From Diadema setosum (lineage: Eukaryota > Echinodermata > Echinoidea > Diadematoida > Diadematidae): DNA of 64,000 bases. Within the stretch, counting starts at the first letter, position 1. Every line of letters begins with the position of its first letter. The translations under genes were made by a program, and so were the position numbers. The notes under the pieces are model-generated. The model made no database searches. It saw nothing but the letters and a program-made list of their open reading frames with translations, and had not been told where the DNA came from. The DNA is taken from NCBI RefSeq assembly GCF_964275005.1, contig NC_092696.1, positions 30,837,006 to 30,901,005 of the forward strand. The letters run 5' to 3'. Below, piece by piece: positions 16,016-51,229 of this stretch.

Positions 16016-16123
16016 TTAATAAGGAATAATAATTGATGACATAAAAACACATACCTCTGTGCCTCCTTGATAGTGATTCAGCAACTTGTTCAAAGGCTTG
16101 TAATTGATGGTAATGCACTCCAC
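16016..16123 (-). CDS. NLR gene exon 10: last LRR piece and possible C-terminus
   Basis: The acceptor CATGCTACAG ends just before 16123 and the exon reads VECITINYKPLNKLLNHYQG in phase 0. Its start fits the rule seen at each LRR junction of this gene: the upstream exon ends S-x-C-x and the next begins [V/I]-E-x-[L/I]-x-[L/I]. A donor (GAG then GTATGT) at 16055/16054 would make a 69-base exon leading to undetected exons. If it is not used, the frame stops 12 codons later at 16016. The overlapping frame read from 16005 to 16223 is out of phase and rejected. The exon is short compared with the others (162-186 bases), so this is the weakest exon of the model. Confidence 0.55.
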   Translation of the reverse strand: MECITINYKPLNKLLNHYQGGTEVCVFMSSIIIPY

Positions 16124-16213
16124 CTGTAGCATGATGGAAAAAATGAAAAAAAGGCTCATATTTTATACCAACATATAACTTATATACATATATACAATTT
16201 ATATTTAATACAT

Positions 16214-16308
<95 letters not shown>

Positions 16309-17215: not shown

Positions 17216-17299
<84 letters not shown>

Positions 17300-18940: not shown

Positions 18941-18992
<52 letters not shown>

Positions 18993-21900
18993 ACAGAGAG
19001 AGAGAGAAAAAAAAAGAGAGAGGGAGGGAGAGAGAGAGGGGGGAGGGAGGGAGATAGGGGGAGAGCTTGCTTCCCAAAGGATCTAAATCCGTCATTTTTC
19101 AATGGATTTAGCACCTTTTTGAAACAAGCTCTTCATATACCAGATTTTGATATTCCAGGGGCGGATCCAGGGAGGACTGGCGCACGCCCCCCCCCCTTTA
19201 TTTTTTGTTGAAACAAAAGAAATAAAAAGAAAAAAAATGGGGGAGGGGTGCGTACGCCCCCCCCCCCTTTAATTTTGCAAACACGCCCCCTCTTTACGGA
19301 ATTCCTGGATCCGCTCCTGTATTCTCTAAAGGAAATCGTTTCATGGCAGCATACTGAATATTAATTGAATCACGTGTTCTTACCAATATGGAATGACAAA
19401 TCCTTCTTCTTTTCAAAAAGAAGTCTTCATTTCGATACATATTTTTCTTTTATAGGTATAAAACTTTCATTGATTATCGAGCGTCGGTACGGATTGAGAT
19501 TACACATGATTAAAATACCACTGCTTGGGAAGTTTCCTTTTTTTTTAACTTTACAACATCTTCCATTGGAATTAGAAAAGTATGCGATTATATTTCATCG
19601 ATGGGATTGGCGAATTTCATAAATCAATGCCACCGAAAAGACATAACTGCATAGTGAAATAAATCGAAATATCGCTCTCAAGGTAATTGACGCCCCCACC
19701 CTCCCATTTTGACGGTGTTGAACAGATGACAATAGGCGTTTTCACATCAGCCCGATGTTTTGAAATAGAGCTGATGTGAAAACGCCTAATGACTGACTCT
19801 TACTCTACAGCGTGAAGCCTGGGAGGCAATTGTCGTGAAGAATGTCCTTGGCAGGTTTAGATCATAGAGCTCGGCAAGTGTAAGATGGGGCAGACGACAC
19901 AGAAATTCAGCCAAGTTTGCTGCTGCTGACTCTGAGGCGAAGTCCCCCACTGACATGGTAGATATGCTAAATATGTAAAGTTCGATGATCTGTATCAGAA
20001 AGAGGAAAAAAAAATATCAGCCACAAATCGTTTACTCTACCGACCCATTTTCCTTCGTCCGTTTCTGATTCTCCCTCCCCCTCTCTCTCTCTCTCTCTCT
20101 TTCTTTCGAAATATTCTGAGCATTCGTAACGTATCGTACACGTTACTGGGTTACAAAATTAATTAGTTATTGCTCTTTGGAAGCAGACAATGAAATGCAA
20201 TCCACTAAGTTGGGTCTTTGTTACGATCTTCGCGGTGGATCACGTCGCAATAATGTTTATCAGTTTATAACATTAACTTACGATAAAAACAAACAAACAA
20301 ACCAAAATCGCAATGTTTAGTACTGAGATACATTATTAAGCAATTTTTATGCGACATGAAATTCTTGTAGCAAGGTAACATTCCCTATGACTATTCGTCA
20401 ATGGCTGCGTTTATCAACTTTCCCCAGTTTAAACGACTTTCGAAAGCCCTTTCGATAGCCCTTTCCATAGCCCTTTTGAAAGCCCTTTCCATAGCCCTTT
20501 CGAAAGCCCTGTCCACTCCCTGTACTATTAATGTGCCGCTTGTTTTCGTCGGCTGCGTTTATCAACTTTCGATAGCCCTTTCGATAGCCCTTTCCATAGC
20601 CCTTTCGAGAGCCCTTCCAAAGCCCTGACTGCCTGTACTATTAATGTGCCGCTTGTTAAGAAGGGACGGCGAAAATCAATTACCATCATAAAGACATATC
20701 TTCCTTTGAGAGTGACGAGTCATGATACAATGGCACATGAATCAATTGTCTTCCTATCTGTGAGGCAGCTCTCGTTTAGCACATACTTCAAATATTTCTG
20801 AGTGGCGGCATGAGACAAGGGATCAAAGGGAATGAGACTGTTGTTACTCTATTTCTCAAACCTTGTTGGTGAAAGAAACACCTCCTTGTTCGAAGCATAT
20901 GCGTGCATTACACACAGCTGTATGTATACACCTGTGTACACGTACTCGTGTGCACTATACGTGGCGCGCGTCTTTTCAGAAACTGGAAACGCATGGTTGC
21001 GTAACCGCAGTAGGGCGACGTAAAGGGCTTTCAAAACAGCTTTGCGTTTATCAACTTCGAAAGGCTTTTACAAACAGGTTTCTGATAACCTGTTTAGGAA
21101 ACCTGTTTGGATCGTCACAAATTTCGGGCTTTCGAAAAGGCTTTCCTAGAGGGCTTTCAAAACAGCTTTGCGTTTATCAACTCGTGAAAATTCCTTGAAA
21201 GCTGTTTGGATAACCTGTTTCTGCCGAGAAAGGAGAGTTGATAAACGCACCCTTTCGTAAAAGGCTTTGCTAAAGGGATTTCAAATCAGCTTTGCGTTTA
21301 TCAACTCGTAAAAGTTCCTTGAAAGCTGTTTGGATAGCCTGTTTCAGCCGAGAAAAGGAGTTGATAAACACAGCCATAGACACATGAGTAGTCTTCACGT
21401 TACAATTGTTTCCGTCTACATTCAAATAATGAGTTGTGACTTGCGAATGCAAATTACTGCACCACCGCCTTGCTTTTTGCGGTCTTTGCCAGCAAGGAAG
21501 TGATCACAAATACCTATCACATTTTCGCACACAGAGTCGTCCAGTGTCATTCTCGGTTAGAATATCTTTTAGTATCTTTACTCTATTCAATTCTATCGTA
21601 AATGAAGGATTCATTGTGCCGCATTACAAACTGCAGCATTGTGAAGTCGCCCACGTAGCGTGCAGTGTTTGGGATTCCAAGAATTTAAAGGGGCCCTGAA
21701 ATCCAAATGCATGTTGATCTGCGTTGATTTATGATACCTTCAACATCACTTTAGCGGTGAAATGAATATCTAGAAACATTCCATATATTTTTAATGATTT
21801 TTTTTCTGTTATTTTTCTTCAGATTACTTGGGAACACACACAAAAAATCCTTCCAAACCAATCAATATTCATATTCTTGAGATGACATCATCTGTCAATC

Positions 21901-23517: not shown

Positions 23518-23600
<83 letters not shown>

Positions 23601-26600
23601 CATCCCTCTCTTTCTCTCCCTTTTTATCTTTCTCTCTCCCTCTCTCTCTCTCTCTCTCCAACTTCCCTCACTCCTCTCTGCCTGCTCGTGCAATGTTTTG
23701 TTGTTTTTTTTTGTTTTTTTTTAATGGCAAAAATTTAATAATCACACTTATCGGAGAGAAACATGGTATCGTCAGTAAAGAAAATACTTTATGTGTAAAG
23801 CCCAACCGGATAACGGAAGAGACGCATTGCACTCGATTTCCATACATTTGTCAGTGCATGAAAAGTGTTCACACCTATGCTTTCGTTCATCTATTGAATG
23901 TCATAATGCTGAGGAGGATTGAAGTTACAAATAATGTTATGTCAATATCAAATAGAATAGGATTGATTTGCTAAAGGAGTCATTGCATAAACCTATAATA
24001 CACATCAGGCTCTTTATCTTTTCTCGAAAATACAAATACAGTCCTCTCCCAACAATAAATCACTAATTTCAATAAAAGTCAAAGACAACATAGGCTATAC
24101 CTGGCACGATGATTCTAAGGTGGCGGCTGTTGAGATGAAACTATCGGGCAAGTAGGGGCACCACAGACTGAACTTCGAAAGACGTGGCATAGCACACACC
24201 CATTGGGCCAAGTCTTCTCCAACCGAGGACTGACTTAGAAAATCATCGCCGCTGCTAAAATATAAATTCAGATCTTCAATCTAAAGAAAATAACGGGAAA
24301 GACATGTGAAACTGAAATTTAGAGATTAATGAAATGATGTGAACTTTGGAAGCAGGAATAATTGAACAAAAAGAAGAGAGATCATTGTAGAGGAGGATCG
24401 TAGACTACCAACTGGACCCCATGGAAGACCAGATTAACGTAGCTGAATATGGGCTATCCAGCCATCTTCTCAGATGGAAAAAAAAAGAAGAAGAATAAAA
24501 CAAACAAACAAAAATCATACCTAATGATGTAATGTGCGGATATTTTAAAGCTATAGACGTAAGATCAAGCAACATTTTTTTTTTTTTTTTACTTAATCGA
24601 CACACTGATATGATTATGTAGCGACAACAATAATAACGACGTTATTGGAAGCAGTATAATGGACTCTCCTTTCATACATAGGAATGTACAGACCCAACAA
24701 GCTGAGTCAGTGGATAAAAGATGGCTTCGTCATTCCCTACAGTCCGTGATCCTCATACTTAATGGCAATTAATACCACTTGCTTTTTTACCGTTCATGGT
24801 CAGGTGCGGACCAATGAATTTGTTGTCAGTCATAACGATCCACATGTACACTGAATAAATCAAAGTAAGAAATGATGTCATAAAACATAATGAATAATGG
24901 ATGAAATAATTGTTAAAAGAATAAGATGACCCCTATGTACTAAAAAAAGGCGGGACAAAACTGGACGAAATAGTAGCAAAGTCTCCTTGTACACTAACAG
25001 GACATGCAAGAGGATTAAAGTCGCGCGATGTTTTATGAAGGCATTCTCCAAAGTAAAGAACACAGATTATCGTTGCCTAATCTAGAGTAATATGTTTTTA
25101 AGTGGGGAATTTAACATTGTAAAGTAGCTATGAAGTGCAAGCAGGGTATACAACGTATATCTGATATATTTCATATCGTTATTCGAAGTATTATGTACCG
25201 AATTAACCAGGCTCCCCGACTGAATTGAAAATACGTATGGTTTATTAAATGCAATAGAAAATAGAATTTCAAGAAAAAAAATCTTTTCAAACAAATAACA
25301 AGCGCTGTAAAGGAAAAAAAAACAACAACAACAACAACGAAGCAACACTTATAATGTCCTTCCTTCTACTCCACATGAAGTAACTCCCACATAATAGCGC
25401 CCTCACGCTGTACATTGATCACTTCTGTCTGTCTGTGAATGCAGTCGAACTTGTACATTGCGCTGCTCCCTGGCAAGCTTAGATCTGAGTCCCTGATATA
25501 TAAATCCAATAAACTCTAATCGCTTTTCAAGCAGTTCAAAGGATCATCATGCCAGGTCAACTTCTCAAAAGATAATACCGATATATAGCTGTTTGAAGTA
25601 TCTTGCTATGTAAAGTCGACTTCCCCAAACTCATGCTGTCATTGTGACATACAAAATAATCCTCTTCAGAGTCTGCTTCCTGAAAAAAGAATAATTGTCA
25701 TGGTGACATACACTATCTTGCTATTCAAACTTCGTTTCCAAATGCGTCCACAGGTGTATATCTACAGATGCACTTACACTATTTTCAAGAAGTACAACAT
25801 GTGAATGTCATCGTATAGGAACATGAATCATAGCAGTCAACTCGACTTCACGAGATATTACATGTCGTTATGGCGACATAAATTATCTTGCTGAGTACAA
25901 GTACAGCCAAACCTGTCTATATCGGCCACCCAAGGGAAACAACAAAAGTGGCCGCCATAGACAGGTGGCCGCCAAAGACAGGTCAGTGGCCATTTTGAAT
26001 TGCAACACCTGCATTGTATAACAGCATGAAATACCGCACATTATTCCGCACGTTATTCTAAAGAGAAAAAAACAACTACAAATAAACAAGCAAATAAATT
26101 TACATGTGCAGGTATTTCTGTATGTTTTTTTTTTGCCTCATTTTATTTGTGTTTTTTTTTTCCCTATTTCTGTTCTTTTGATCTTTAAAACAGCATTTCG
26201 GGCCTGAGGATCTGTACTGGTTCGTACGGGTTTACATGAATGGGTTCACAAATGAGTTTGTGCGAAGTTGACGTAAGCAACAAACAATACCCAGACAAGT
26301 ACCCCATTGCTCTTATTCAATGGCAGTTAATCTTTGTCAAATTCTGCGCCGTTATTTCATTTTAGGAGCTGTCTGTGCCTTTGTAACCTTTATTTAGAGC
26401 GACATCACTAGAGCATAGATCTAGCCAAGTTTAGCGAAAAGACGGCTTTTCATGGCAAAGAGCTGCATTAATTTTGTCAATCATGTCTGTGTGGTTGTGA
26501 CTGAGATAGGAGTCGGTATAATTCACGCAATGAAGTAGAAAGCTAACGTATACTAATGGTTCTAAATATTTGTTGCCGTTATATGCAGGTTCACCTCAGG

Positions 26601-36471: not shown

Positions 36472-36514
<43 letters not shown>

Positions 36515-36764
36515 TAGTTTGTTCGCAAAAACCGATGAGTACATTTTTGAAGATTTTGAAGTGCGGTCTCTGTCATAAAGTACAAAATAATACCTTTTAA
36601 ATGAGATATTGGGCACTACATAAAGGTACATTTATGAAGTTATGGTAAAAAGAAGCAAAAAATTCTTATTATTCTCTTTATTTTTCTTGACCTTCAATCG
36701 CAAATATCTCCATTTGGCAAATATGGACTTATCGGTTTTTGCAAACAAACTCTTCATATATATA

Positions 36765-36809
<45 letters not shown>

Positions 36810-39800
36810 CACAATGATAATAATTGCAAAGGCTAATCAAAGATGGCCTCCAAGGTCATAGATCATGTACTCATGGAAATAATGTTAACATGTTGTTGAT
36901 TTATTCCAAAAATATCTATTTCCTGGACTGTCCTTGTACTGTCAAGAAATTAAAGGCATTATTTATCATTTGCAAACAAAAACTCAGCTGTAGTTCTATA
37001 ATGCAAGTATGGAATAGAAACAACCAATGTAAAAATGTTAATCAGTATAATCAATGTTATGTATTATTACATATACAAAATGCGAACAATAATTATAATA
37101 CAATTCAAAATATATTAAGGCTATTGAGACAAAGAGTAATATCTCCTCATATTTTAGGCTTTACAGGATTTTTTCATATGGTAGGATGTTTTCTGATACA
37201 GCTGAGCTACACGTAATGCGTTACATGTGATAGCTCGTATATTTTTAAAATCACTGCATCCAATGGTTAATAATATCTTTAAATCTAATTTTAGTTCAGT
37301 TCGTACAATGTACGATTCAGGGGCGGATCCAGGGACGACCGCAACCGGCGCACGCCCCCTTATTTTTTTTTTTTTTGTTGAAAAAAAAGAAATAAAAAGA
37401 GAAAAATGGGGGGAGGGGTGCGTGCGCCCCACCCCCTTTAATTTTGTAAACGCGCCCCCTCTTTATGGAATTCCTGGATCCGCCCCTGCGATTGCATTTA
37501 CTATCTGCTTTGAACAGCTCATTACACAATAGTCATTATTGTATAGTCGTATTTGAATGAATCGTAAATAATTGAAACCCAGAACTTTTAAATAGAAAGA
37601 CTACATATCAGATTATAACAGATGGCTTTCTTACTCGTGCTCAATTCTTCTTCCTCATAAGATAGCTCCAGGGTGTCTAGTATGTTTGGTCTTCGCCAGC
37701 AAGGGTTCCAGACACATGCTGAAAATATTATAAGTAACCGCAACATTAGTACTTTAAAGGTTTTTTTTTTTTTTTGGAATACAAATAAATAAATAAATAC
37801 ATGAAGAGTTTGTTTGCAAAAACCGATAAGTCCATATTTGCCAAATGGAGATATTTGCGATTAGAGGTCGAGAAAAATAAAGAGAATAATAAGAAAATGT
37901 TTTCTTCTTTTGACAATAACCTGAAAAATGTACCTTTATATAATGTGAACAATATATCATTTAAAAGGTATTATTTTATACTTTGACAGAGACCATACTT
38001 CAAAATCTGCAAAAATGGACTTATGTGTTTTTGCGAACAAACTCTTCATATGGAGAGTTCGGTTTCAAAAGGTACTACATGTACAACCATAATTTCACGT
38101 TCTGCGAAAAACGCGATTTTTTTACTTATCATATTTAGCAAGCTCAGAAAGGAATGATATTTCCCCCTATCATACTGCTAGATGATACAACACTAAAACC
38201 ACTCTCTAAGAAAATCCAGGTCCATTTATTTATTTTTTTTATCAATTTTTTATGTTTTTTTTTTTTGTTTTTTGTTTTTTTTTTTTTTTGGGGGGGGGGG
38301 TGTAGTACCTTTTGCAACCGAAAGTGGATGTAGTACCTTTTGAAACCGAAATTTCACATGCCAGAGATATATTTAGTGTGATGTTATGACATGTTTCGCG
38401 GATTTATTTTTTCAGCAATGGTGCTGATGGGGATGGGATACGAGGTCAAGGGGGCCTAGGTAATTGACAATGCCCTGCCCTATTTAGCATCAAGAATAAC
38501 AAACCAATGTGCATCGCTAATGCCCTTCTTCTCCCTTGCTGACTAACATTTTGAATGAATGACTGTCATTGGTCATAAGCATGGGGGGATCCATTATGCG
38601 TGAACGGTTATAGATGGGGAGGGGTCACAATATCTCACCAGGTGATTTCTCTCTTCCGTTTTCTTCTTTTGTCTTTCTCTCACGAGCTTTATCTCAAGAT
38701 TTCTTATCTTTTTCCTCTTTGTATTAAATTTTTGGCTATTTTTCTCTCTGTGAATTCTCCCTTCACGTGTCTCAAGAATACTGTATTCATTATCTTTTCT
38801 TCATTTTTTTTTTCAATGTAACTTCTAAGGGAAAAGATGGAAAAGCAGCATCTGAATGTGCTGTATTTTCTAAATTGTGTAATTAAGTTCATTACATGAG
38901 TTTTATTCTTATTTTTTTTTTTTAATCAGGTAAGATAAATCTGATAATCTAATACATCATTCATGATCCGGACGACCTCTTCAAGCGTCTAGGATGGAGT
39001 GAGGACAAGCTGAAAAGTCGGGTCTCTTCCTCGTCATTTCGACCTAGGAATTACCCGGCCCTCTTTCATCTACAGATTTAACCCAGATCTCATTAACAAG
39101 TTTGATTGTTAATGGTTTGCAGAGTAAACTAGATATTGGAATTTAGGACTTACATTTGCAAGCATATGATGTAATCTGTCTTTTAGAGAGAAAAACAGAC
39201 ACACCAGATCTGTCTCAATGTCATATTTGCGGTTTTCAGTGTTATAGTATGCCAAAATATTCCAATAAACAAAAGTTTGGTGGTTTTCACGGTATGTGTA
39301 TTCTGGTGAAGAATCATATTTTCAATTGTTCGGAAAGAATTCATGCAACAGTTTCTGAATCAATTTTATGGGTCAAGGTAAATAGTAAAATTTTAGGTTT
39401 TGAGGTTATTGTTGGTGTAGTGTAGTTGTCATGTGAGGGATCAATTCACCATTCTAATGAAGTTTTTGACAACTTGATGCAGGATATCATTGATATCAAA
39501 AGTAGATATGATGCTCCCTTTTGTTTGCTGGGTGATTTCAATGTCAGGACGGGTTTGCTTGATGATTTTTGAGATGTAGAGGATGTGTTGACAGATCAGA
39601 CTGGATTAGGCTTTTGTAATGATGTCTCTGATATGCATGTAACTACTGATGGCCTAGATATTCCAACTACTCGTTATAATACTGATGTCCATGTAAATAT
39701 CAATGGAAAGTCTGTTATTGATGTGTGCCAAAGTTTTGATTTTAAGGATTGTTAATGGAAGAATAGGGGAAGATCAGTCTGTCGGAAAATACACATGTTT

Positions 39801-42800: not shown

Positions 42801-45800
42801 CATATCTGTTATTTTCACACGTACATGTACATTATCATGTATATGTGTGTATTCATATATTGTAAATATGTTTGTATTCTCATACCACGAGAGGGGGTCG
42901 ATAGAGTCAATAAAATCTTACAAATCTTACAAATCTTGTAGGTGATAGAAATCAAAACCGTCGATGAGTAATATGACCACCTATACTAAACGCACATTTG
43001 GTATAACCTTTGTGACACTGAATAAGTAAAAGGTGTCATTTACAAGAATGAATAAATCTAGTGTTCAAAGCTGTTTTCCGCTATATACTTTCAAGCCTTT
43101 GGGCCTGGTACCTGACATTATGCACGTATAGAATAGCACAACATACCTTCAGGTAAAGCACTGTTGGTAGGGATGTCAGAATTTCATGCCATTTTATACA
43201 TCTAGCAAAGTAACTTTGCTTTCAGACTAGATGTCAAACACTTATTAACTGTTAAGCTATTTATGTAAGAAATAAACAATACCTATAAAGTGTCTGTACT
43301 TTATTCTGGGAACAATTTTTGGGTCAAACTCAACACCCTAGCAGTAACGCACGGTACCGATAACTAACAGTAGATGCAGTACGTGGGACTACATGAGAGT
43401 CGCGTAATTTCTCCAGTTTCTCCTTTGGCTTTGCTCTTGTCGACTGCTTTTAATCCACGATACTTCTCCTGGGATGGTTTGTTTTGTCAATGAGTTCTCC
43501 TTCATTTTCTTACATTGCTTGATAGAAATGTGATGAGTTTTTCAAGATATTGGTCAGATTTGCGTGGTGATTTTAACAGAAAGCCAAAAAGCCAACAGCC
43601 AACTGCTTTTGTTTACGGATTATTAAAAGTCAGTAGGCAATGGTAGAGGGCCAAGCCAGTGCTGCTCTCTAATTGGTCAATTTCCCGATGATGTCATTGG
43701 AGTGGATGTAGTGCCTTTTGCAACCCAACTAAAATGGATGAAGTACCTTTTGCAACCGAACTGATTTTTAAATGGATATTTCAACACTTTCTGGTTGGAA
43801 ATTCAGCTTTTCGTTAGTATAGGTGTAAAGATTTCCTAAAAATGAGTACATCAAGACCAAAAAGTGGATTTTGATGGAAAATGGATGTAGTCCTTTTACA
43901 ACTGAGCCCTTCATATATAAATATATGTGTGTGTATATATAAGAAGAGTTTGCTCGCAAAACCGATAAGTAAATTTTATAAGATTTTGAAGTACGGTCTC
44001 TATCATATAGTACTAAATAATACCTTTAAAATGATATATTGGTCACTACATGTAAAGGTACATTTTTGAAGTTATGGTCAAATAAAGCGAAACATTTACT
44101 ATTATTCTTTATTTCTCTTGACCTTTAATCGCAAATATCTCCATTTGACAAATATGGACTTATCGGGTTTTGCAAACAAACTCTTCATGTGTGTGTGTGT
44201 GCTTGTGTGTGCATGTGTTGGTGCGGGTGTGTGTGTTATATGTGAATAATATTGTTCTTGGATTTTTTTTTTTTTTTGGATATGGTTTAATTTGTCGATG
44301 TAATTTATGTGATATGTGTTCATCTAGCACTATGTGAATGCAAGTATCGTATCTTCGTCGGTGCCATTGCTGGCATATTTTATCTATATACTGAATCCTC
44401 TTATGTCGCAAAAGCTATTAAAAAGACATGTTAAATCGACTATAATTATTACTTGCACTGATTACGTGCACATCGACAGTCATGGTTATTTTTACTACCA
44501 CTTGTGATACACACACCAACAAACGCGTATAAGAAAATGACTAGATGTACAAAAAAAAAAAAGAAGAAGAAGAAGAAGAAGAAGAAGATCGACACCTTTT
44601 CGCGGTAGGTATTCCGGGTGTTTACTACTCAGATACTTTCCAACAAGGATGAGAAGGGCGAGAGGCACACCAATAGTAAGTCCGATGATGAGACCCGAAT
44701 TAACATGTTTATCTGAAATTTTATACAGACACAGATATAACAAGTCTTTAGTTTCTACTGGATTTTGAAGACATAAACATTGAATGTAAATACCTCGCAA
44801 TATGTACAACATTCTCGTGTGTGTTGTGTGTGTGTGTTTTATTGCACCTGGTGTTAGTGACGATGAAAAGAGTCAAAGTGCCCAAGTGTCAGCACTTGAT
44901 TATAAAGAACTATGAAACTTTCGAACAAAAAATAACCAAACCTCCATTTTAGAGGACAGAAGGAATATATAGCGTAAGAATTATTTTTTTCTTCTCCTTC
45001 TTTTTTTATGTTTTATTCATCAAAACTGATGAAACACGTTTCTAGAATGTTTCTGCTTAATTCATAGTAAAATTAATATATACAGATTATACTTCTCCGT
45101 GTCAAATCTGAATTAACTAGCATTTGTTATAGATAAACACTGCTTGTCTACAGACACTATGAATCAGTCAGAATCACAACACTGAAAGCATTTAACGAAA
45201 CCTGATATTGGCAGAACGGTGATTTCTCTGGTCGACGTTCCATTCAGCGAGTCACCGGTAGCCACGCACACTAAGGTTTGCTCTCTTTCATGTTCAGCTG
45301 AAACAGTGATTGTCTCGAACCTCTCGTTTGTGCCGTCAGAAAGTGTGTTCTGTTGTGAAACCACGGAATACAGTCTATTTCGGGACTCCTCGGTCCATAG
45401 CATGGAAATGTTTGGTTTGAATCCACTCACGACACAGGTAAGATTTAAAGAAGGGGTGTTGGAGGGAGATTGATATGTACACCTGCTTTGACGAGATTGA
45501 CTTCTTTCAGCGCATTCCTCAATCGTATGTCCTGATGCCATTGCTAGGAAGATAAGAAAATCATTTTGAAATGACTTATATGTTATATATGGATCCTAAT
45601 CTTTACTCGAAAATAACCGACATGACATGATATCACCTGATACTTTCCATAGATGCAGCGAAGAGTTGTTTTCGCTTTTGTTTTGTTTTGTGTGTTTATT
45701 TTTCAATAGGATTTGCTATTTTACAAATAAGACTACAACCTTGACAATGATCAGATGGAGAAACATAATTATGACAACTGGATGATAATACAAAATAAAC

Positions 45801-48800
45801 AAAAATCACCTGTTTACATTGAAATTCTACATTTAGGATGACTACATCTATATAGCTTTATGACTTGATACAAAAATCACTGTTAATATACCTCAAAATT
45901 CATAAGTAATAATTATGACAAACGCAAAAAGGAACAGCGTAACAAAATGAAACAGAAAGAAAATGAAGTTATAAAGCTAGTAAAAGATAAACATGTTTCC
46001 AATTATGCGAAATGCAAATGTGAGACAACTGTTTGAACCTGAGTATGTCTTCTACACAATTGAACATTTATATAGAAAATTCGGTCATCGAAAGTCTGAC
46101 TTTGTTTCAAACTTGGTGATTGCTTTGGTAACGTCTTTGTAGTAACTGCTGTTTAAGAAAAAAGGAGACCTTTATATAAATTTTATCAAAACATTATTCA
46201 TGACTGATTTAAACAGAAAGTTCACAAACTATCTGTCCGCAGTCAACATCTATTTTGTTTTAAGGCATAAACGGTAACGTCAAATAGGACAATATTGCTC
46301 TAACATCTAAATGTGGAAAAGTGCCCTCCTCAAAAAGAAAAAAAAACACACACACACACACAAACAAGAAGAAGACATGGTTCACTTTCTAAAAATAGTT
46401 TGAAATGTAAATCTTTCTCTCTGACAAAGTTGTCTCTACTATCTTGATTTCTCTGTTTGCTGTGAAACTTGTGATATGAAAACAGTCTTCAAAATGTCAT
46501 CGTAGCAAATCTAATAGATAATGTAATGCTTTATCAAAAGGAAACTAAACGGAAGGGTAAGTGTGCTTGTGGGAAAATGAACAATACGTAAACATGCCCA
46601 GAATAGTAACTTTAATAAGTATACTCTTTGTGGTACGTTGTATTTCTTTCAAGCAAAAAGTTTGATTGCAGTTAGTCTCAGTTATTCATCACCACGATTA
46701 CTCTTGAAATTGGCTTAACTTCTAGCATTATTTTAAATGTCAATATTGCCTTAAAATGTTGTGCCGGACTATTACTGACATGTCGTTTTTTCGTCTCCTT
46801 CTTTTCAGTTAGCTTGAGTGTCTAAAGTTTCTTCTTCTTTTTTTCTATATTTTACCGGTAATCTAATTCATAACAATCTTTTTCCCTGTCACTATTTATG
46901 ACATGAATAGAGACAGATGTTACTTACAGCTTATCGTCATGATTGTGGAATTCTCGAAACTTTGGGAATTCTTCAGCAGCACCTGACAATAGTAACGACC
47001 CTCATCTGCCACCTCCAAGCTGCTGATGACGAGGCTGAAATTCTTGTCGATATCAAACCGTTCCTCCAAGCTCTTCAAATGTCCATCGAAATATTCAGCC
47101 TTACGCGTCTTCTGTTCGGGATTTAAGAAGTCCTCCTTTTCCCAGTACACATCTAGAGGCTCCTCCTTGATGTCACACCGCAACAGCATGTCTTCTCCTT
47201 TCCATCCTTGAACGTTGGGGACAGTGCCTACCACCGACGCTAGACGGCAGAAATTTGAGTGCGCGTGATTGTATCCATGCAATGAACTTCATTCATATGG
47301 CTCTCTACTCATGTCTTGTATACATGCTTAACATGCTATATATGCATAAATGTCTTGTATATTCATGCTCCTCCCCCCTCCCCGAAAATGGGGAGGTGTA
47401 GCAAAGAGATCAGAGTAATCTATTATTATGATTATGATGATGAAGATTATTATTATTATTATTAGTAGTAGTAGTAGTAGTAGTATTACTATTATTATTA
47501 GTAGTATTACTAGCTCTTTATGTGCCATGGTGGAAACTCCCTGTGTGCCACATTATTCCGAGACACGAAGGTAGTCATGCTTTGAGAAAGAATTATGTTT
47601 TTCTAATGTGTATAACCTCAACAAATTTCTGTTAAGATGGGCATAATAGTAGGCAAAGTTACAGAGGAATGCCAAACTTTGTTTCGATATAGATTTTATG
47701 ACGAATCTATTTGCAATTTCTCTTTCGAATGACCTGTTGCTACATTACTGTAAAGGCATGAGTTTTGCACATAAAACTGTGACAGAAACTTAGAAAGTAC
47801 GAGCAAATCTAGTTTGGAACATCGCTTGATAGTCAATTACCACATAGACTGCAAGCCGTATATGAGAGGAACAAAAGCACGAAAAACGCTTTCATTGTGC
47901 CGCGGGATTAGCAGTGATTAGCGATTTATCGATCGGTTTTGGCGGCTTTGTTTAATTGTTGAGCAGAATATGCGAAGTTGGCACGCCGTCGACTGAGCCG
48001 GACGTGCGAACGTGGCACATAAAGAACTATTATTATCATTATTATTAATATTAAAGGCCGTGTCACACTAGCCTTGCGTGCGACTTACAAAGAACAATAA
48101 TTTTGACTACCCGGAGGTCCCCGTAGATGATCCGCACATGACAGTACCTAGCATGTATCTCAAAAGTAGTCGCCCGGAGGTGCGCACGCATATTTTTTTT
48201 TTTACCCGCAACCGTGTTTAGGCCCTGTCACACCTTTCCGGGCAAGCTACTCGGGCTTGTTACGTGTAGGGATTTTCTAGCATACCGGACATTCCTGAGG
48301 GCGGAAAAGGATTTGTGCGAGTCAGCGCATGTGACTTACTTGCTGGACGCGTTATACTTGCGAGTATACTGTGTGACCTTTGTACCAGTCGCGTGGGGGC
48401 TGACAACTTAGTGAAGGAATTCCTCTAATGGAATGGCTGAAATCTCACAGAATTTCATTATCTTGGCTGCATACGGGACTGCGAAGTACCTGCGTGGGAA
48501 TTGCCTGGGAAGTACTGCCGCTAAGGGTCTCCTACTAGCGTTCTGCGTGGACCTCTACGGGCATTCCCGCGACTCACCCGGAAAAAAAAAAAAGTTTTGG
48601 TCATGCTCAAAACTTGGCTGTGGTTAAGTAGGACTTGCGTAAGCACCTCCGGGCAACCACGCGCTAGCTACTGTCAGGTGCGGACGAACTGCAGAGAGCT
48701 CCGGGGAGTAAATCTGTTTCCCCGCAAGTCAAGCCGCAGAAGTTCCCCTGTACGGGATGACAAGGCATGAATGAAAATTGCAAACATTCTTGTTCGCCCG

Positions 48801-51229
48801 CTGAAAATCTTCTACGATCCAGCTGGAAACTACCTCCTCGCCACAAGCCCGCGTAGCTTGCCCGGAACGGTGTGACACGGCCTTTATATTGATATTATTA
48901 TCATTATCATTATTATTATCATTACTATTATCATTATCATTATTATTATTGATACTTTTATTTTGATACCCCAGTTTGTCTGGTATAACTAGCGAAAAAT
49001 TGTTCAGTCAATATCCTTCTTACGCTTTCGATCATTTAAAAATAAAGACTATACAGATGAGAAATTTCTTTCCAATACGTAACTTAAGGTTTAAAACTTT
49101 GGATGAGTTGAGTCTTAATTTTAAGGTGAAGTTAAACCATTGTTGTCGGAAAGAATGGTCAATATTAGGTTATCCAAACCTGAATCAGCATAATCGATGT
49201 TTTCCTAATGAACATATGTAAAACTTGTTTTCTTTTCTCCATTTAATTAAGCTGATCGTAAAGATAAGATATAAGAAAAGTACGACACAAATGACATCAT
49301 ATACACACAGTCTTGTTACCATTCTGCTCTTGCACGTTTTGAGATCAACCAACACTGTCCTGAATAAAAAAAAAGTCAAAATATTGTCCGAAAAAAGTTA
49401 GATTGTAAAGTAATGGAAATGGTAACAGATAAATCCTAATTAGAGTCAATAGTATTATTATTCTCCGTTGAAACGCCACGAATATTTACTTGAAAATCAT
49501 TAAATAACAAACAAACAGCCACACATTCCTACGCGAATAAACGTTAAATGACACTGGGATGACGACAATAATAGAAAAACACTAAAAGACAAGACAGAAT
49601 GAGAACATAACAAGAAGACAAAACAATGGACAGAAAGGCAAAACAGAGCCAGCGACCCTCTACAGAACTACAATTTATTGAAAAAAAAAATGATGCGATG
49701 CGTGAAAAGGATACGAAAATTATAATTATAGAGAAACGGAGAGTAGTAAAGAAGTAGCATAATTAAAATCAAATCTACTCTGCAAGCGTTTAGTGTATGA
49801 GGACAACAGGGACGAGAAAAATACGTGACAGATATTTGTCACCCAAGTTCTTTGATAAGCACAAGTTTTTAATGCAGTGAAGTTTACATTATGTGGTGAC
49901 TATATTACTGGACTAATGATTCAGACGTTTGCACAGCTTGCATGCATTTTTCTGATTGTGATAACTTATACGAATGGTTCTGTGAGACTTTATTTTTTCA
50001 GACACACTTCGATTCTGCGGAATAAAAATGGAGGCACCCACTGAAAAAGATGGTGCTGGGAGAGGGAAGGAGAAATGAGTGGCTCGTGACGGGCTTGCAA
50101 CTAAAAAGAGCGCAGGAAAATGGGGGAAAGAGGGTATCAAAAAATAGAAAGAAAAAGGATTTCGACAAAAGAGAAAAGAAGAAAACGAAAATATGGAAGA
50201 AAGAGACAAAAGTTCAAAATAGCCTAGATTAATCCAGGAATTAGATTGGTCAAAGCCCACAAGACGATTATAATAGCCATATCAGGACAGTATATCGTAT
50301 ATAACAGCTGCAAAGTTGGCATACTGAACTGCTGGCAGCGGAGTTGGCTACAATGTATCTGTATCTGTGAAAGCAGGTATATAGAGTAGGAAGTGAAATG
50401 AAGATGGAAGGCGATATGGGATGTATTATAAAAGCGAAGCCAGCCTGGGAAGAAACAGACATGGCGTGATTACTAAACGCATGATAAGAGACTAAACAAA
50501 ATGTATTTCTTTCTATTGCATCATTTTATCAAAACAAACAATTTCGATCTGGTTTAAAACGAATTCAATGAAGGTGCATATATGATGTCTATACAAAGGA
50601 CGTTTCAGAAACTTGGACCTTTGTAGATAGAATGATGTCTGTTAAACTAGCACGATTCTTAGCAAAATGATATTTCAGTCTCTTAGTTGGATGCTTGTGA
50701 TGTGTCAGGTTATGATGACACATGGAGTTTAAAGAAAAAGGCATCAGGCAGTATGAGATCATAACTATACACACAAAAAAAAATATCATATCCCCATTTT
50801 AACCTTATTTAAAGGCATGGGGCTTTTGAAACAATGGACGAAAAGTGATAACAAAATAGACTACATCTCACAATCTTTGACCTGCTTAATTAGATAATTA
50901 TGTACTCTCTTGTAATATACCTGCATTTCGCAAATGAACTTTCCTGATAGGTTATAACTCAATACACAAATTGTAGTGCAGACTTGTTTTTATCAAGATT
51001 CAACGTCGGTGAGCACAACGACATTAAAGTAGGAAAATTATATTATTGTACTACTACAGAAATAGGACATGGTGCAAGGACTGCTAAACGAGCGATTAGT
51101 GTCTATAATTACACAGTCGTAGCAGTCTGTATTATATAGTAGGTCCAAGCGCTTACCTTCGCCATAGTGGCCACAGAACACATTAGTAGTCAATGTTAAC
51201 AGGAGAACGAGGTAGAATCTTCTATCCAT
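16016..51229 (-). CDS. Ig-Ig-TM-NACHT-LRR membrane receptor (10-exon gene model)
   Basis: This entry is the whole gene; its exons are listed separately. The reconstructed product is about 1046 residues: signal peptide 1-19, Ig V-like 25-128, second Ig 129-242, TM helix 249-267, juxtamembrane 268-330, NACHT with Walker A at 392-399 and Walker B at 466-473, winged-helix region, then LRRs from about residue 836. Junctions 1-5 are all phase 1 and junctions 6-9 all phase 0, and every exon is open in the required frame. The extracellular Ig part should bind a ligand. The NACHT part is an NTPase oligomerisation switch known from cytosolic NLRs. Joining both across a membrane is what I see in the exons; function is inference. 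Introns hold transposons: a 4-kb LINE in intron 4, a 3.3-kb inverted-repeat element in intron 6, and a solo LTR in intron 9. No death, CARD or TIR domain was found. An alternative is two neighbouring genes, but the shared phase across the juxtamembrane exon argues against this. Confidence 0.78.
16221..16305. repeat. (TA)n microsatellite
   Basis: About 40 TA units with one interruption. It abuts the left end of the LTR-like element. A second TA array (17217-17268) abuts its right end, so the element appears to have inserted within a TA array. Confidence 0.95.
16306..17215. mobile_element. Probable solo LTR, about 910 bp
   Basis: The segment begins TGTAACGAA and ends TTCGTAACA, i.e. TG...CA ends with a short inverted repeat, as in LTRs, and is bounded by TA repeat on both sides. 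A TATTTATAA box lies near 16694-16703. The right third is purine-rich with degenerate subrepeats such as GGACGGAGCAAGG. No internal retroelement genes lie next to it, which suggests that recombination between two LTRs removed the body. A BEL/Pao- or Gypsy-like origin is a guess from the end sequence. It lies in intron 9 of the NLR gene. Confidence 0.45.
17297..17995 (+). mobile_element. Non-autonomous TIR transposon, 699 bp, copy 1
   Basis: Starts TGTGACCCTGTACTTCAAAA and ends with its imperfect inverse, TTTTGAGGTGCACGGTCACA. The TIR is about 35 bp. It has no coding capacity. A second copy of the full element lies in opposite orientation at 22502-23192. Flanked by (TG)n on the left and TACATATA on the right, consistent with insertion at TA. 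Confidence 0.85.
18007..18670. mobile_element. Foldback mariner-type MITE, 664 bp
   Basis: Ends are CCGGGTGTCCCC and its inverse, each flanked by TA (18005-18006 and 18671-18672), the target duplication of Tc1/mariner elements. The two arms (about 18007-18320 and 18380-18670) are near-complete inverse copies around a (TG)n core at 18343-18374, so the whole element can form a hairpin. It has no transposase. Confidence 0.85.
18682..18933 (+). mobile_element. Roughly 250-bp MITE (GAAGAGTTTGTTTGC family), copy 1
   Basis: One of five copies in this window. It has inverted ends of about 37 bp, consensus GAAGAGTTTGTTTGCAAAAA, followed by CCGATAAGTCCAT. The core includes the block AAATGGAGATATTTGCGATT. 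No coding capacity. A (TA)n array starts right after its 3' end. Confidence 0.88.
19156..19319. mobile_element. GGCGGATCC foldback element, copy 1
   Basis: Begins CAGGGGCGGATCCAGG and ends with its inverse CCTGGATCCGCTCCTG. The inside is C/G-run flanked (CGCACGCCCC and GTACGCCCC) around an A-rich core, so it folds back on itself. Four copies lie in this window. Confidence 0.85.
19733..19788. repeat. Short perfect palindrome
   Basis: The 18-mer TAGGCGTTTTCACATCAG is followed after a 20-base loop by its exact inverse. It lies in the intron just downstream (on the minus strand) of LRR exon 9. Probably a miniature transposon. Confidence 0.7.
19804..19989 (-). CDS. NLR gene exon 9: LRR exon, 62 codons
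   Basis: Acceptor TTTCTGATACAG before 19989 and donor AGA|GTAAGAG after 19804; phase 0 at both ends and fully open. The translation starts IIELYIFSIST and contains SAAANLAEFLCRLPHLTLAEL, then ends SQASRCR. This is the NLR-type LRR pattern of alternating beta-strand (LxLxxx) and helix (xxLAExL). The end S-R-C-R and the next exon's V-E-C-I follow the same junction rule as the other LRR exons. The exon probably encodes two repeats and would form part of the curved ligand-sensing solenoid. Confidence 0.8.
20401..21377. mobile_element. TIR element of 977 bp with CCTTTCGA subrepeats
   Basis: Begins ATGGCTGCGTTTATCAAC and ends GTTGATAAACACAGCCAT, an 18-bp inverted repeat with one mismatch. Close to the left end, CCCTTTCGAAAGC/CCATAGC units repeat many times (20440-20630), with a second internal copy of the terminal motif near 20551. 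The right half carries two repeats of AGCTTTGCGTTTATCAACTC followed by GTTTGGATAACCTG-like DNA. About 200 bp at 20690-20900 look unrelated. The open frames here come from the subrepeats. Confidence 0.7.
21686..22317. mobile_element. Full-length palindromic element, 632 bp
   Basis: Starts TAAAGGGGCCCTGAAATCC and ends with the exact inverse. The two arms (about 315 bp each) are inverse copies over nearly their whole length, meeting near 22000 around a small loop. Matches include AACAAAAGACATTGGAATGT against its inverse on the right arm. No coding sequence. A single arm of the same family lies at 29853-29985. Confidence 0.9.
22502..23192 (-). mobile_element. Non-autonomous TIR transposon, 691 bp, copy 2 (inverted)
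   Basis: Inverse copy of the element at 17297-17995, with the same ends (TGTGACCGTGCACCTCAAAA on the left, TTGAGGTGCAGGGTCA on the right) and the same internal blocks, such as ATTATGGACAGAATGTGTTA. It is followed by an AATTG pentamer repeat at 23232-23260. Confidence 0.85.
23464..23660. repeat. Compound (CT)n-(TA)n-(CT)n microsatellite
   Basis: A CT array at 23464-23528, a TA array at 23528-23597, then another CT-rich array up to 23660. A 149-codon frame across it is low-complexity Leu/Ser/Tyr/Ile and not a gene. Confidence 0.95.
24101..24280 (-). CDS. NLR gene exon 8: LRR exon, 60 codons
   Basis: A strong acceptor (CCCGTTATTTTCTTTAG) precedes 24280 and the donor CAG|GTATAG follows 24101. 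Phase 0 on both sides and open throughout. The translation starts IEDLNLYFSSGDDFL, continues VGEDLAQWVCAMPRLSKFSL and ends LESSCQ. This fits two NLR-type leucine-rich repeats. The junctions KCL/IEDL and SCQ/IIEL repeat the same motif at successive exon borders, which supports both the phase and the gene's continuity. It is flanked by transposon-filled introns. Confidence 0.85.
24413..24505 (+). mobile_element. LINE 3' tail fragment
   Basis: TGGACCCCATGGAAGACCAG, then GCTGAATATGGGC and ATCCAGCC, matches the terminal hairpin region of the LINE at 8840-8900. It ends in an A-rich tail. Only the last 90 bp are present, as expected for a very short LINE copy or a SINE that borrows the LINE tail. 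Confidence 0.7.
25560..25897. repeat. Degenerate tandem repeat
   Basis: The phrase GTCATNGTGACATACA followed by TATCTTGCTAT recurs three to four times at intervals of about 120 bp, with many substitutions. It abuts the next transposon. No gene is seen. Confidence 0.45.
25902..26751. mobile_element. TIR element of 850 bp (CAGTCAAACCTGTCTATA ends)
   Basis: Left end TACAGCCAAACCTGTCTAT, right end GACAGGTTTGACTGTA. Further GGTGGCCGC-AGACAGG motifs lie just inside both ends. TA at each border fits a TA target duplication. No transposase frame is visible. Ends of this kind occur in MITEs of many marine invertebrates, from memory. Confidence 0.75.
26760..28170. other. No gene recognised (intron 7 of NLR gene)
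   Basis: AT-rich DNA with an A-run at 26767 and a G-run at 27797. Short frames at 26821-27042 and 27995-28189 have no domain or splice support. Confidence 0.5.
28180..28958. other. CpG-richer segment, nature unknown
   Basis: Compared with its surroundings, this stretch is GC- and CpG-rich (for example GCTGCGCTGCGCTGCCGG near 28430) and contains small inverse repeats such as CAATAGGCCC/GGGCCTATTG around 28280. It runs into the palindrome at 28959. I read it as part of a large inverted-repeat element, but cannot fix its ends. Confidence 0.35.
28959..29132. repeat. Large palindrome, about 87-bp arms
   Basis: Left arm GAATAATTTATGA...GCGCGAGATTCGCCACTGG and right arm CCAGTGGCTTATCTCGCGC...TCATAAATTATTC are inverse copies with roughly 85% identity, meeting at GCGGCGCTACGCGCC near 29040. 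It would extrude as a cruciform. Probably the core of a foldback transposon. Confidence 0.8.
29133..29850. other. No gene recognised
   Basis: A plus-strand frame of 92 codons at 29180-29458 is not low-complexity but shows no domain and no splice signals I trust. A G-run lies near 29797. It lies within intron 7 of the minus-strand gene. Confidence 0.4.
29853..29985 (+). mobile_element. Single arm of the 632-bp palindromic element
   Basis: Starts TAAAGGGCCCCTGAAATCC and follows the left arm of the element at 21686 through GAAACATTCCATATAT, then departs. The second arm is missing. Confidence 0.8.
30349..30510 (-). CDS. NLR gene exon 7: first LRR exon, 54 codons
   Basis: Acceptor TTCGTTCTATCAG before 30510 and donor CTG|GTAAGAAA after 30349; phase 0 in and out. 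Translation begins QSLEMYGMTCGRTVSRDLAE, continues GMCSSSLFRKVSLSYSKFHV and ends RAEASKCL. After the NACHT exon's final residues CYNQV this gives NQV-QSLEMYGM, the usual move from NACHT helical region into the first LRR strand. The helix part SRDLAEGMCSSS and strand part FRKVSLSYSKF match NLR-type repeats. I read two repeats in the exon. The frame continues past the donor for only a few codons before a stop, as expected for an intron. Confidence 0.85.
30674..33976. mobile_element. 3.3-kb element with about 165-bp terminal inverted repeats
   Basis: The left arm (30674-30838) starts TAGTCCGGCAGCCGAGG and the right arm (33812-33976) ends GCGGCCGGACTA. Between them the arms share long inverse blocks such as GGTGGGTGTGGAGCTCTCAC. 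The interior is AT-rich with poly-T/poly-G runs (32443-32480) and no transposase-like frame; the 180-codon frame at 31964-32506 is low-complexity. It is a large non-autonomous DNA transposon in intron 6 of the NLR gene. Family unknown. Confidence 0.8.
33977..34690. other. Intron 6 remainder, no gene seen
   Basis: DNA between the 3.3-kb element and the NACHT exon donor. Small frames at 33876-34390 lack domains. A CA-rich patch lies at 34605-34630. Confidence 0.5.
34705..36281 (-). CDS. NLR gene exon 6: NACHT NTPase exon (525 codons)
   Basis: This large exon encodes the NACHT NTPase, the switch that binds ATP/dATP and drives oligomerisation in NLR proteins. The acceptor CTTCTCTTTTAAG precedes 36281 (phase 1) and the donor GTG|GTGAGT follows 34705 (phase 0). 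Using the donor removes a five-codon run to a stop at 34687. Motifs, numbered in the whole protein: linker TNEQVQRCKEELKAYYR from 315, DPFEFMELVELDDIY at 340-354, Walker A GEGGAGKTTL at 392, Walker B IIFDGFDE at 466-473, sensor TTRPW at 503-507, and winged-helix marker FPHKLFQEYIAG in the C-terminal third. All catalytic motifs are intact and there is no internal stop. Such a single large NACHT exon is usual in echinoderm and fish NLRs. There is no start-codon context here: the reading continues into upstream exons, ultimately the TM exon. Confidence 0.95.
36510..36758 (-). mobile_element. Roughly 250-bp MITE, copy 2
   Basis: Same family as 18682-18933, in inverse orientation, with the core block AATCGCAAATATCTCCATTT. 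A (TA)n array touches each end (36476-36510 and 36757-36806), so it inserted into a TA repeat. It lies in intron 5 of the NLR gene. Confidence 0.88.
37318..37488. mobile_element. GGCGGATCC foldback element, copy 2
   Basis: Begins CAGGGGCGGATCCAGG and ends CCTGGATCCGCCCCTG. Same layout as copy 1 at 19156, with an A-rich core and GCGCCCC flanks. Confidence 0.85.
37635..37718 (-). CDS. NLR gene exon 5: juxtamembrane linker
   Basis: Acceptor AATATTTTCAG before 37718 and donor CGA|GTAAGA after 37635, phase 1 on both sides, 84 bases. It encodes ACVWNPCWRRPNILDTLELS then YEEEELST (residues 282-309). Split codons give Ala at the join with the TM exon and Arg at the join with the NACHT exon. It has two Cys and two Trp close to the membrane side and an acidic YEEEE patch. 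No domain is recognised; I read it as a linker between membrane and NACHT. The exon is too short for automatic gene finders to favour. It is the piece that puts the Ig-TM part in frame with the NLR part, though direct TM-to-NACHT splicing would also be in frame. Confidence 0.72.
37801..38050 (+). mobile_element. Roughly 250-bp MITE, copy 3
   Basis: Starts ATGAAGAGTTTGTTTGC and ends AACAAACTCTTCAT. Same family as 18682-18933, same orientation. An AAATA repeat precedes it. Confidence 0.9.
38055..38360. mobile_element. Inverted-repeat element with GGTACTACAT ends
   Basis: Left GTTCGGTTTCAAAAGGTACT, right AGTACCTTTTGAAACCGAA, an inverse pair around poly-T and poly-G runs. A related AGTACCTTTTGCAACCGAAC block recurs at 43690-43915, again next to a copy of the 250-bp MITE. 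Confidence 0.6.
39080..42941 (+). mobile_element. LINE with endonuclease and reverse transcriptase, decayed
   Basis: Non-LTR retrotransposon inserted in NLR intron 4, antisense to the gene. The 5' part (39150-40180) encodes an APE-type endonuclease (AYDVICLLERKTD; LLGDFNVRTG near 39530). The RT follows, with DNYRGITLLSCLGNLF near 40935, AGFRSNYSTIDNIF near 41045, YCAFIDYKKAFDLINRSSLW near 41140 and YADDTIILAETPEELQKALD near 41493. The C-terminal domain has a zinc-knuckle-like C-x2-C-x11-H-x4-C (CTIC...HYIFVC, near 42480-42530). Several stops and frame changes split it into five or six open pieces (39156-39425, 39703-40179, 40345-40815, 40767-41330, 41534-42718), so it is inactive. The 3' end has repeated CTTACAAAT units (42915-42941). 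The RT does not look like CR1; I leave the clade open. Confidence 0.9.
43690..43915. repeat. AGTACCTTTTGCAACCGAAC repeat fragment
   Basis: Two tandem copies of GGATG-AGTACCTTTTGCAACC-like DNA (43701 and 43733) and a third, diverged copy at 43882. Related to the element at 38055-38360 and, as there, directly beside a 250-bp MITE. Confidence 0.55.
43943..44188 (-). mobile_element. Roughly 250-bp MITE, copy 4
   Basis: Starts GAAGAGTTTGCTCGCAAAA and ends TTGCAAACAAACTCTTCAT. Flanked on the left by TA-rich and on the right by TG-rich simple repeat. In NLR intron 4. Confidence 0.88.
44596..44712 (-). CDS. NLR gene exon 4: transmembrane exon
   Basis: Acceptor AAAATTTCAG before 44712 and donor AAAAG|GTGTCG after 44596; phase 1-1, 117 bases. 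It encodes DKHVN, a hydrophobic helix GLIIGLTIGVPLALLILVG (residues 249-267), then the basic stop-transfer stretch KYLSSKHPEYLPRKG. The positive residues after the helix, together with the N-terminal signal peptide, predict a type I protein with Ig domains outside and the following exons in the cytosol. A GAA/CTT trinucleotide repeat lies immediately downstream in the intron. No charged residue lies in the helix, so pairing with an adaptor through the membrane is not indicated. Confidence 0.85.
45202..45543 (-). CDS. NLR gene exon 3: second Ig domain (C1-like)
   Basis: Acceptor TATCTTCCTAG before 45543; donor CAG|GTTTCG after 45202 is weak but in the required phase 1. It encodes residues 129-242. 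The core is SLNLTCVVSGFKPNISMLW (Cys165, Trp178), then NERFETITVS and QTLVCVATGD (Cys221). The signature T-C-V-V-S-G-F-x-P-x-I-x-x-x-W is that of constant-type (C1) Ig domains, including antibody and MHC domains, though the same shape occurs by convergence. Two extra Cys (139, 150) precede the domain, and N-x-S/T sites occur at NIS and NGT. It is a single symmetric phase 1-1 exon, typical of Ig exons that shuffle. Confidence 0.85.
45600..46900. other. NLR intron 2, no further exon accepted
   Basis: AT-rich DNA, with a CA repeat at 46346-46362. One possible phase-1 linker exon, with acceptor near 46149 and reading SVTTKTLPKQSPS, lacks a convincing donor. Confidence 0.45.
46928..47239 (-). CDS. 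NLR gene exon 2: Ig V-like domain
   Basis: Acceptor CTGCCGTCTAG before 47239 and strong donor GCT|GTAAGT after 46928; phase 1-1, 104 codons (residues 25-128). The fold marks are GEDMLLRCDI (Cys46), DVYWEKED (Trp57) and VADEGRYYCQVLL, the D-x-G-x-Y-x-C motif with Cys109. The spacing of 62 residues between the cysteines, with an inserted C'-C'' region, suits a V-set domain. One N-x-S/T site (NST) lies near the end. It is the membrane-distal domain of the receptor and the most likely binding face. The reading frame upstream of the acceptor is open but lacks a signal peptide, which is supplied by exon 1. Confidence 0.88.
47440..48052. other. Intron 1, ATT-repeat rich
   Basis: ATT/AGT trinucleotide repeats at 47445-47515 and again at 48030-48052. 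The rest shows no exon. Confidence 0.6.
48053..48885. mobile_element. TIR element of 833 bp (AAAGGCCGTGTCACAC ends)
   Basis: Ends AAAGGCCGTGTCACAC and GTGTGACACGGCCTTT are exact inverses, and ATATT flanks both sides. It is GC-richer than its surroundings and has an internal variant GGCCCTGTCACACCTTTCCG near 48222. It sits in an ATTATT repeat. No transposase. Confidence 0.88.
48886..51150. other. Intron 1 remainder, no gene seen
   Basis: Begins with an ATT/ATC repeat (48890-48952), then AT-rich DNA. Frames at 48976-49221 and 49913-50260 lack domains or splice support. Confidence 0.5.
51157..51229 (-). CDS. NLR gene exon 1: start codon and signal peptide
   Basis: The ATG at 51229-51227 opens MDRRFYLVLLLTLTTNVFCG then HYGE, a classic signal peptide: basic n-region, Leu-rich core, and small/polar cleavage zone near residue 19. 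The donor GAAG|GTAAGC after 51157 leaves phase 1, matching exon 2. An upstream in-frame GTG exists but the ATG is preferred. The exon is only 73 bases. The next acceptable acceptor in phase on this strand is that of the Ig exon 3.9 kb away. A TTTTATATTA stretch about 95-105 bases upstream could be a TATA box, but this is weak. Confidence 0.78.

Follow-up and report, generated by a model that had tools for sequence, protein, structure and literature searches.

A 64,000-nucleotide stretch of the genome of the sea urchin Diadema setosum (contig NC_092696.1, positions 30,837,006 to 30,901,005; hereafter the window, in whose numbering coordinates are given) carries a minus-strand gene predicted to encode a membrane-anchored protein of the nucleotide-binding domain and leucine-rich repeat (NLR) class. 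Splicing of 11 minus-strand exons from the genomic DNA gave a single open frame of 3210 nt (1069 codons), in which the sole stop is the final codon, and all ten introns are GT-AG. The domain order of the spliced product is putative signal peptide, V-set immunoglobulin (Ig) domain, C-type Ig domain, transmembrane (TM) helix, juxtamembrane cassette (J), NACHT domain, leucine-rich repeat (LRR) exons and tail. The exons are:

51157..51229, minus strand: exon 1, start codon and signal-peptide-like N-terminus MDRRFYLVLLLTLTTNVFCGHYGE, ending in phase 1; the same as the N-terminus of NCBI model P0001, with the signal peptide judged by eye
46928..47239, minus strand: exon 2, V-set Ig domain, phase 1-1 (PF07686, E 5.2e-11)
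45202..45543, minus strand: exon 3, second Ig domain, C-type, phase 1-1 (C1-set and C2-set slightly under cut-off)
44596..44712, minus strand: exon 4, TM helix followed by basic residues, phase 1-1 (Kyte-Doolittle peak 2.48)
37635..37718, minus strand: exon 5 (J), juxtamembrane cassette of 84 nt and 28 residues with a CxWNPCWRR motif, phase 1-1, absent from P0001
34705..36281, minus strand: exon 6, pre-NACHT linker, NACHT (GEGGAGKT, DGFDE, TTRPW) and winged-helix/helical region (PHKLFQEY)
30349..30510, minus strand: exon 7, first LRR exon, 54 aa, phase 0-0
24101..24280, minus strand: exon 8, LRR exon, 60 aa, phase 0-0
19804..19989, minus strand: exon 9, LRR exon, 62 aa, phase 0-0
16055..16123, minus strand: exon 10, final LRR or capping exon; read-through of its donor leads to a stop at 16016
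14322..14429, minus strand: exon 11, C-terminal tail and stop codon, matching the tail of paralog P0008

The joins between the signal-peptide, V, C, TM, J and NACHT exons are in phase 1 and those between the LRR exons in phase 0. Exons V through J are all symmetrical phase 1, the customary phase for shuffled extracellular modules. An initial annotation had proposed that signal peptide, two Ig domains, TM helix, J, NACHT and LRR exons are joined in frame on one strand, and the single open frame, the GT-AG introns and the consistent phases bear this out; splicing also reproduced the borders given there for the signal-peptide exon (from 51229), the TM exon (to 44596), J (37718-37635) and the NACHT exon (from 36281). 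Its exons, splice signals and phases stand, whereas the end that it placed at 16016 is merely the read-through stop of the exon starting at 16123, and the gene probably ends at 14322 by way of the additional tail exon (14429-14322). The window NACHT exon is 100% identical to that of P0001, an NCBI D. setosum model of 864 aa named 'NLR family CARD domain-containing protein 4-like', which uses the same signal-peptide, V, C, TM, NACHT and first LRR exons. P0001 has two additional residues (VS) ahead of the TM exon (44712) for which no canonical scanned site accounts. The six bases immediately 5' of the TM-exon acceptor would encode them, but the acceptor would then not be AG, and a microexon was rejected as their source, since that intron yielded no candidate flanked by AG on one side and GT or GC on the other.

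The domains were assigned from profiles, hydropathy and predicted structures. The NACHT domain is strongly matched (PF05729, E 9.4e-24) with Walker A and B motifs intact (GEGGAGKT, DGFDE, TTRPW), and is followed by the winged helix-helical fold found in NLRs. In the V domain the cysteines C46 and C109 are invariant among 50 aligned members (gaps ignored), as expected of the V-set disulfide, and the V domain of the predicted structure of paralog P0137 resembles JAML and CD2. The second Ig domain in the window scores slightly under the Pfam cut-off (C1-set, 19.4 bits vs 21), and that of paralog P0122 lies above it (41.5 bits across two copies). Hydropathy along the spliced protein rises to a single strong peak at residues 249-267 (Kyte-Doolittle 2.48). 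No second TM helix follows the NACHT domain in the window protein, where no other peak exceeds 1.31. Because no Pfam LRR family matched in five paralogs, at least three of which contain such exons, the LRR region was judged by structure prediction. The P0137 model has a strand-helix repeat every ~28 residues from 817 to 1027, aligns with NLRC4 as far as its final residue with the LRR repeats inside the aligned range, and also matches NLRP3 and NOD2 through the LRRs; from the fold of this paralog the C-terminal LRR region typical of NLRs is predicted. No death-fold family, the usual N-terminal effector of NLRs, was found in the tested window exons or in the five paralogs, and the tail likewise gave no Death, CARD or TIR match. 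An N-terminal death-fold domain appears to be dispensable in echinoderm NLRs, since 22 of 53 NLRs in the holothuroid Chiridota heheva were reported to be NACHT-only (PMC8913654).

The window gene is, judged by sequence, one of dozens of copies, and its layout is a family feature. Searches with the NACHT domain (120 of 248 matches listed) and with the Ig module gave a set of 192 proteins, in which domains were called by simple profile and hydropathy rules. NACHT was present in 168, and in 78 of these, all models of either D. setosum or D. antillarum, an Ig domain lay N-terminal to it. A hydrophobic helix stood between the two in 70 of these 78 (44 D. setosum, 26 D. antillarum), 60 of which have V, C, TM and NACHT in that order; LRR segments occurred in 53 of the 70 and a J segment in 52, and two had a helix-like peak past the start of NACHT. 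Another 90 models have NACHT without Ig, 53 from outside Diadema and 37 from within it. The loose CxWNPCWRR pattern was found in 60 of the 192 proteins. Neither this J motif nor an Ig accession was found in any of the 53 non-Diadema NACHT rows among the matches listed. In four D. antillarum models (P0147, P0140, P0009 and P0026) the juxtamembrane region is enlarged by 16-residue repeats in tandem, exemplified by RGPNIPEQCHEESECL. The array in P0147 has 13 units (residues about 290-510), and in P0147 and P0140 the repeats come after the J motif and are Glu- and Cys-rich. Related Diadema models, 21 in number (P0121-P0134, P0141-P0166 and others), have V-C-V-C, V-V-C or similar multi-Ig arrangements, many with 3-6 Ig domains, together with a TM helix and no NLR part; possibly these are a sister or separate class of surface receptors.

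Gene models carry biases of their own, and the raw genome DNA was therefore searched. The 912.7-Mb D. setosum assembly contains at least 102 NACHT matches (240 candidates, of which 102 were scored). Ten of these, taken at roughly even steps down the list, were examined with exon profiles in six frames over 20 kb around and upstream of the match. C, TM, J and NACHT were found in order on one strand at seven of the ten loci, with V as well at six and a duplicated C at one, and the six-frame profile search found no Ig, TM, J or NACHT exon on the opposite strand of those seven. The remaining three had NACHT alone, scoring 114-140 bits vs 254-287 for the seven. All seven loci, like the window, have open exons in phase 1 that are bounded by AG/GT, with the qualification that the better-looking site was chosen where several fitted and that the NACHT exon was examined at its acceptor only. 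Recurrence of the same pattern at seven of ten sampled NACHT loci places exon order and phase beyond chance. Mean pairwise ratios of nonsynonymous to synonymous substitution (dN/dS) were 0.34 for V (7 genes) and, over 8 genes, 0.28 for C, 0.49 for TM and 0.29 for the initial portion of the NACHT exon. All are below 1, and extracellular, membrane and intracellular exons are therefore under purifying selection. Among the eight sampled loci synonymous divergence in the C exons was about half that in the V exons (0.33 vs 0.70), which might reflect gene conversion of C.

Variation between close relatives was examined in 50 rows in which V, C and NACHT each occur exactly once. In 98 pairs more than 85% identical over NACHT and the following region, identity was 75% in V, 86% in C and 89% in NACHT. 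The highest single-column entropies lie mostly outside V. Within V, variability is concentrated on the C, C' and C'' strands and the FG loop (1.42 vs 0.81 bits, p 2.6e-4), a partition chosen after inspection, and dN/dS on this face is 0.52 vs 0.23 elsewhere in V (7 genes; the face was delimited with the entropies already in view). Partner binding by V domains commonly involves this face, and the pattern supports recognition by the V domain as a possible function.

The origin of the fusion was addressed with two trees of NACHT, both rooted on non-Diadema rows. A FastTree analysis of 155 of the 168 NACHT rows (full NACHT and the region after it), with 52 non-Diadema rows from S. purpuratus, Lytechinus and ENA records as outgroup, placed all 66 Ig and TM rows inside one 98-row Diadema clade (support 99), although the program flagged long branches where the outgroup joins the Diadema clade. 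Two Diadema Death-NACHT proteins (P0055 and P0060) and three others fell outside it. A mixture-model tree of 56 hand-picked rows of the 155, some without detected Ig, agreed, with a Shimodaira-Hasegawa-like approximate likelihood ratio (SH-aLRT) of 98 for 36 Ig-clade rows. The simplest reading of these trees is a single capture of the Ig-Ig-TM module before the split of D. setosum and D. antillarum, followed by expansion. Searches for a source of the module beyond Diadema gave 98 matches, all from Diadema, and in a second search 106, all from Diadema but for one Galleria peroxidasin; no holothuroid was among them, but this absence outside Diadema is weak evidence given a method based on 5-residue words and a collection whose holothuroid content was unchecked.

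The initial annotation knew of no described family with this layout; that none exists is contradicted by AjNLRC4 of the sea cucumber Apostichopus japonicus (PMC8699970). That protein was reported to combine a pair of Ig domains with a TM helix and a NACHT inside the cell, and to lie at the coelomocyte membrane, where its Ig part binds bacteria and it acts as a phagocytic receptor required for uptake of Vibrio; the intracellular part or NACHT binds beta-actin, and dimerisation was ascribed by the authors to the Ig domains (PMC8699970). A later paper reported binding and activation of caspase-1 through the Ig domains (PMC11932488). In the Diadema gene, too, a TM helix and then NACHT follow two Ig domains, but AjNLRC4 was described without LRRs and with a predicted second TM helix past NACHT (776-795), whereas the Diadema gene has LRR exons and the window protein no second helix (PMC8699970). 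A second A. japonicus protein, AjNLR-new, also combines Ig, TM and NACHT, but its authors set the Ig part between two TM helices and report an extracellular NACHT, the opposite of the topology proposed here for Diadema (PMC13133943). The topologies reported for A. japonicus are mutually hard to reconcile, and Diadema is the cleaner case. V-set Ig combined with NACHT is known from another echinoderm, C. heheva, although this is a holothuroid in which V-set is named among the 6 of 53 NLRs 'with other domains', and the same genome paper reports finding no V-set NLRs in sea urchins (PMC8913654). Putative membrane-bound animal NLRs, with TM helices, have also been described from actiniarians and sponges; the actiniarian proteins differ in having 3-5 N-terminal TM helices, and the available parts of both accounts do not mention Ig ectodomains (PMC5094078, PMC12909245). 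Echinoid Death-NACHT NLRs from S. purpuratus and Lytechinus are among the closest NACHT matches listed outside Diadema (38-44% identity), but the N-terminal domain, for those that have one listed, is Death (PF00531). No title on Ig-NACHT receptors in Diadema or the sea urchin family was found among the open-access titles listed, a scope that leaves subscription papers largely outside. What is new here is the expanded, LRR-bearing form in sea urchins, the Ig-TM-NACHT design itself being already known.

The favoured explanation, which we regard as likely, is a single gene for a membrane-anchored Ig-NLR receptor. Such an Ig-Ig-TM-NACHT-LRR product is, as a prediction from sequence, well supported by the gene structure, by paralogs in two species, by an exon order independent of annotation and by purifying selection on the V, C, TM and NACHT exons. 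It would be a type I membrane immune receptor of NLR class, in which a V-set/C-type Ig ectodomain recognises something outside the cell, and a single TM helix and the short Cys-containing J exon would hold a complete NACHT-winged helix-LRR module at the inner face of the membrane. Ligand-induced clustering of the ectodomains would draw NACHT modules close to one another and promote ATP-dependent assembly beneath the membrane; extracellular recognition driving NLR-type oligomerisation is plausible. In a protein whose tail gave no Death, CARD or TIR match, output would have to pass through partners, and these would most likely be the cytoskeletal or phagocytic machinery, as reported for AjNLRC4, or Death-domain NLR paralogs reached by NACHT-NACHT contacts. 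Any single signalling output can be put forward only tentatively.

Several observations weigh against this explanation. In the P0137 model the second Ig domain and the TM-J stretch have a predicted local distance difference test score (pLDDT) below 50 in most residues, the TM-J intron of the window is 6.9 kb long with reverse-transcriptase remnants, and P0001 omits both J (84 nt, frame-neutral) and the later LRR exons. No helix lies between Ig and NACHT in eight of the 78 models; 23 of the 192 have Ig and TM without a NACHT segment, two of which (P0165 and P0186) carry other NLR parts; and these 23, like the 37 Diadema NACHT models without Ig, could be separate or alternative products or cut models. 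Many of the NACHT-only Diadema models begin inside the NACHT exon and hence may be cut. Variation about as great as that of V (75% identity in close pairs) is also seen in the pre-NACHT linker (79%) and in the second LRR exon (72%, 29 pairs). Positive selection on V was considered and rejected, mean dN/dS being below 1 even on the variable face, and only a tendency to vary is claimed.

The existence of models with only one half of the layout, together with the long introns and methionines 22 and 35 residues past the start of the NACHT exon, would suit two mis-joined neighbours, an upstream Ig-TM receptor and a downstream cytosolic NLR that share a strand through tandem duplication. This is improbable, since a small, open and symmetrical J exon (phase 1 at either end) that encodes a conserved peptide lies between TM and NACHT at all seven Ig-bearing sampled loci and in the window, is represented in 52 of the 70 Ig-TM-NACHT models and has no obvious role in either separate gene. 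That one locus makes two products by alternative splicing or termination, the full Ig-TM-NLR and a short Ig-TM form ending after TM or J that acts as decoy or co-receptor, is a possibility of some substance, though not the expected one. The frame-neutral J is present in some models and missing from others, P0001 included, read-through of the window TM exon gives a short tail and then a stop, and certain D. antillarum members are labelled isoforms; V-C-V-C-TM and V-V-C-TM-J models without NACHT point the same way, but are explained equally well by truncated models or separate multi-Ig receptor genes.

Two further alternatives accept the single receptor and concern its output. It is quite conceivable, if somewhat short of an even chance, that NACHT engages actin and drives uptake and that signalling is not inflammasome-like, an analogy resting on the beta-actin binding and Vibrio uptake reported for AjNLRC4 (PMC8699970) and consistent with the failure to find a death-fold domain in the window exons or five paralogs. 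AjNLRC4, however, as reported, differs in its lack of LRRs and its second TM helix and is related to the Diadema gene by layout, not by demonstrated descent, and the caspase-1 binding via Ig reported later would imply cytosolic Ig domains (PMC11932488). Instead, the membrane NLR might act as a sensor on which cytosolic Death-domain NLR paralogs are nucleated into hetero-oligomers, in the way that NAIP seeds NLRC4. Death-NACHT relatives placed outside the Ig clade do occur in Diadema (P0055 and P0060) and the fold of the module resembles NLRC4, but the proposal is purely one of analogy and is judged unlikely. Similarly doubtful is the most far-reaching version, in which diadematids, independently of sea cucumbers, joined an Ig-Ig-TM module on a single occasion to a NACHT-LRR gene resembling the Death-NLRs and multiplied it into a large set of surface NLRs whose V-set faces vary and whose juxtamembrane spacer is tunable, being skippable and repeat-expanded; as membrane sensors these would seed cytosolic Death-NLR assemblies and form a surface-to-inflammasome receptor class.

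NLRs are generally treated as cytosolic sensors, and a membrane-anchored family of NACHT-LRR proteins topped by Ig domains, as favoured here, would make extracellular control of NLR assembly testable. A large single-clade family in Diadema would also show that the membrane-NLR design reported for one sea cucumber gene serves as a major receptor strategy in a second class of echinoderms. A scuticociliate has caused mass mortality among diadematoid urchins (PMC12865139), which makes their surface receptor repertoire of practical interest.

Other features of the window are:

47841..47895, minus strand: candidate alternative first exon MKAFFVLLFLSYTACSLC, phase 1, adjoining the V exon
40755-42718, plus strand: RVT_1 remnants within the TM-J intron, opposite in strand to the gene
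6851-7738, plus strand: further RVT_1 remnants
54741-56057, 58836-59288 and 63168-63998, plus strand: apparent tandem copies of an Ig-type membrane receptor, upstream of the gene and on the opposite strand
55623-55878 and 58855-59094, minus strand: matches to the C-terminus of NCBI model P0048

The core of the candidate alternative first exon occurs in none of the 192 proteins and the exon is unsupported. Among the frames tested in the plus-strand receptor copies Ig was significant only in the third, 63168-63998 (PF00047, E 1.2e-5), and two of the copies have tails with repeated VYETIP tyrosine motifs and NALYEF. The matches to the P0048 C-terminus lie antisense to these receptor tails, and the end of P0048 is therefore probably a misannotation.
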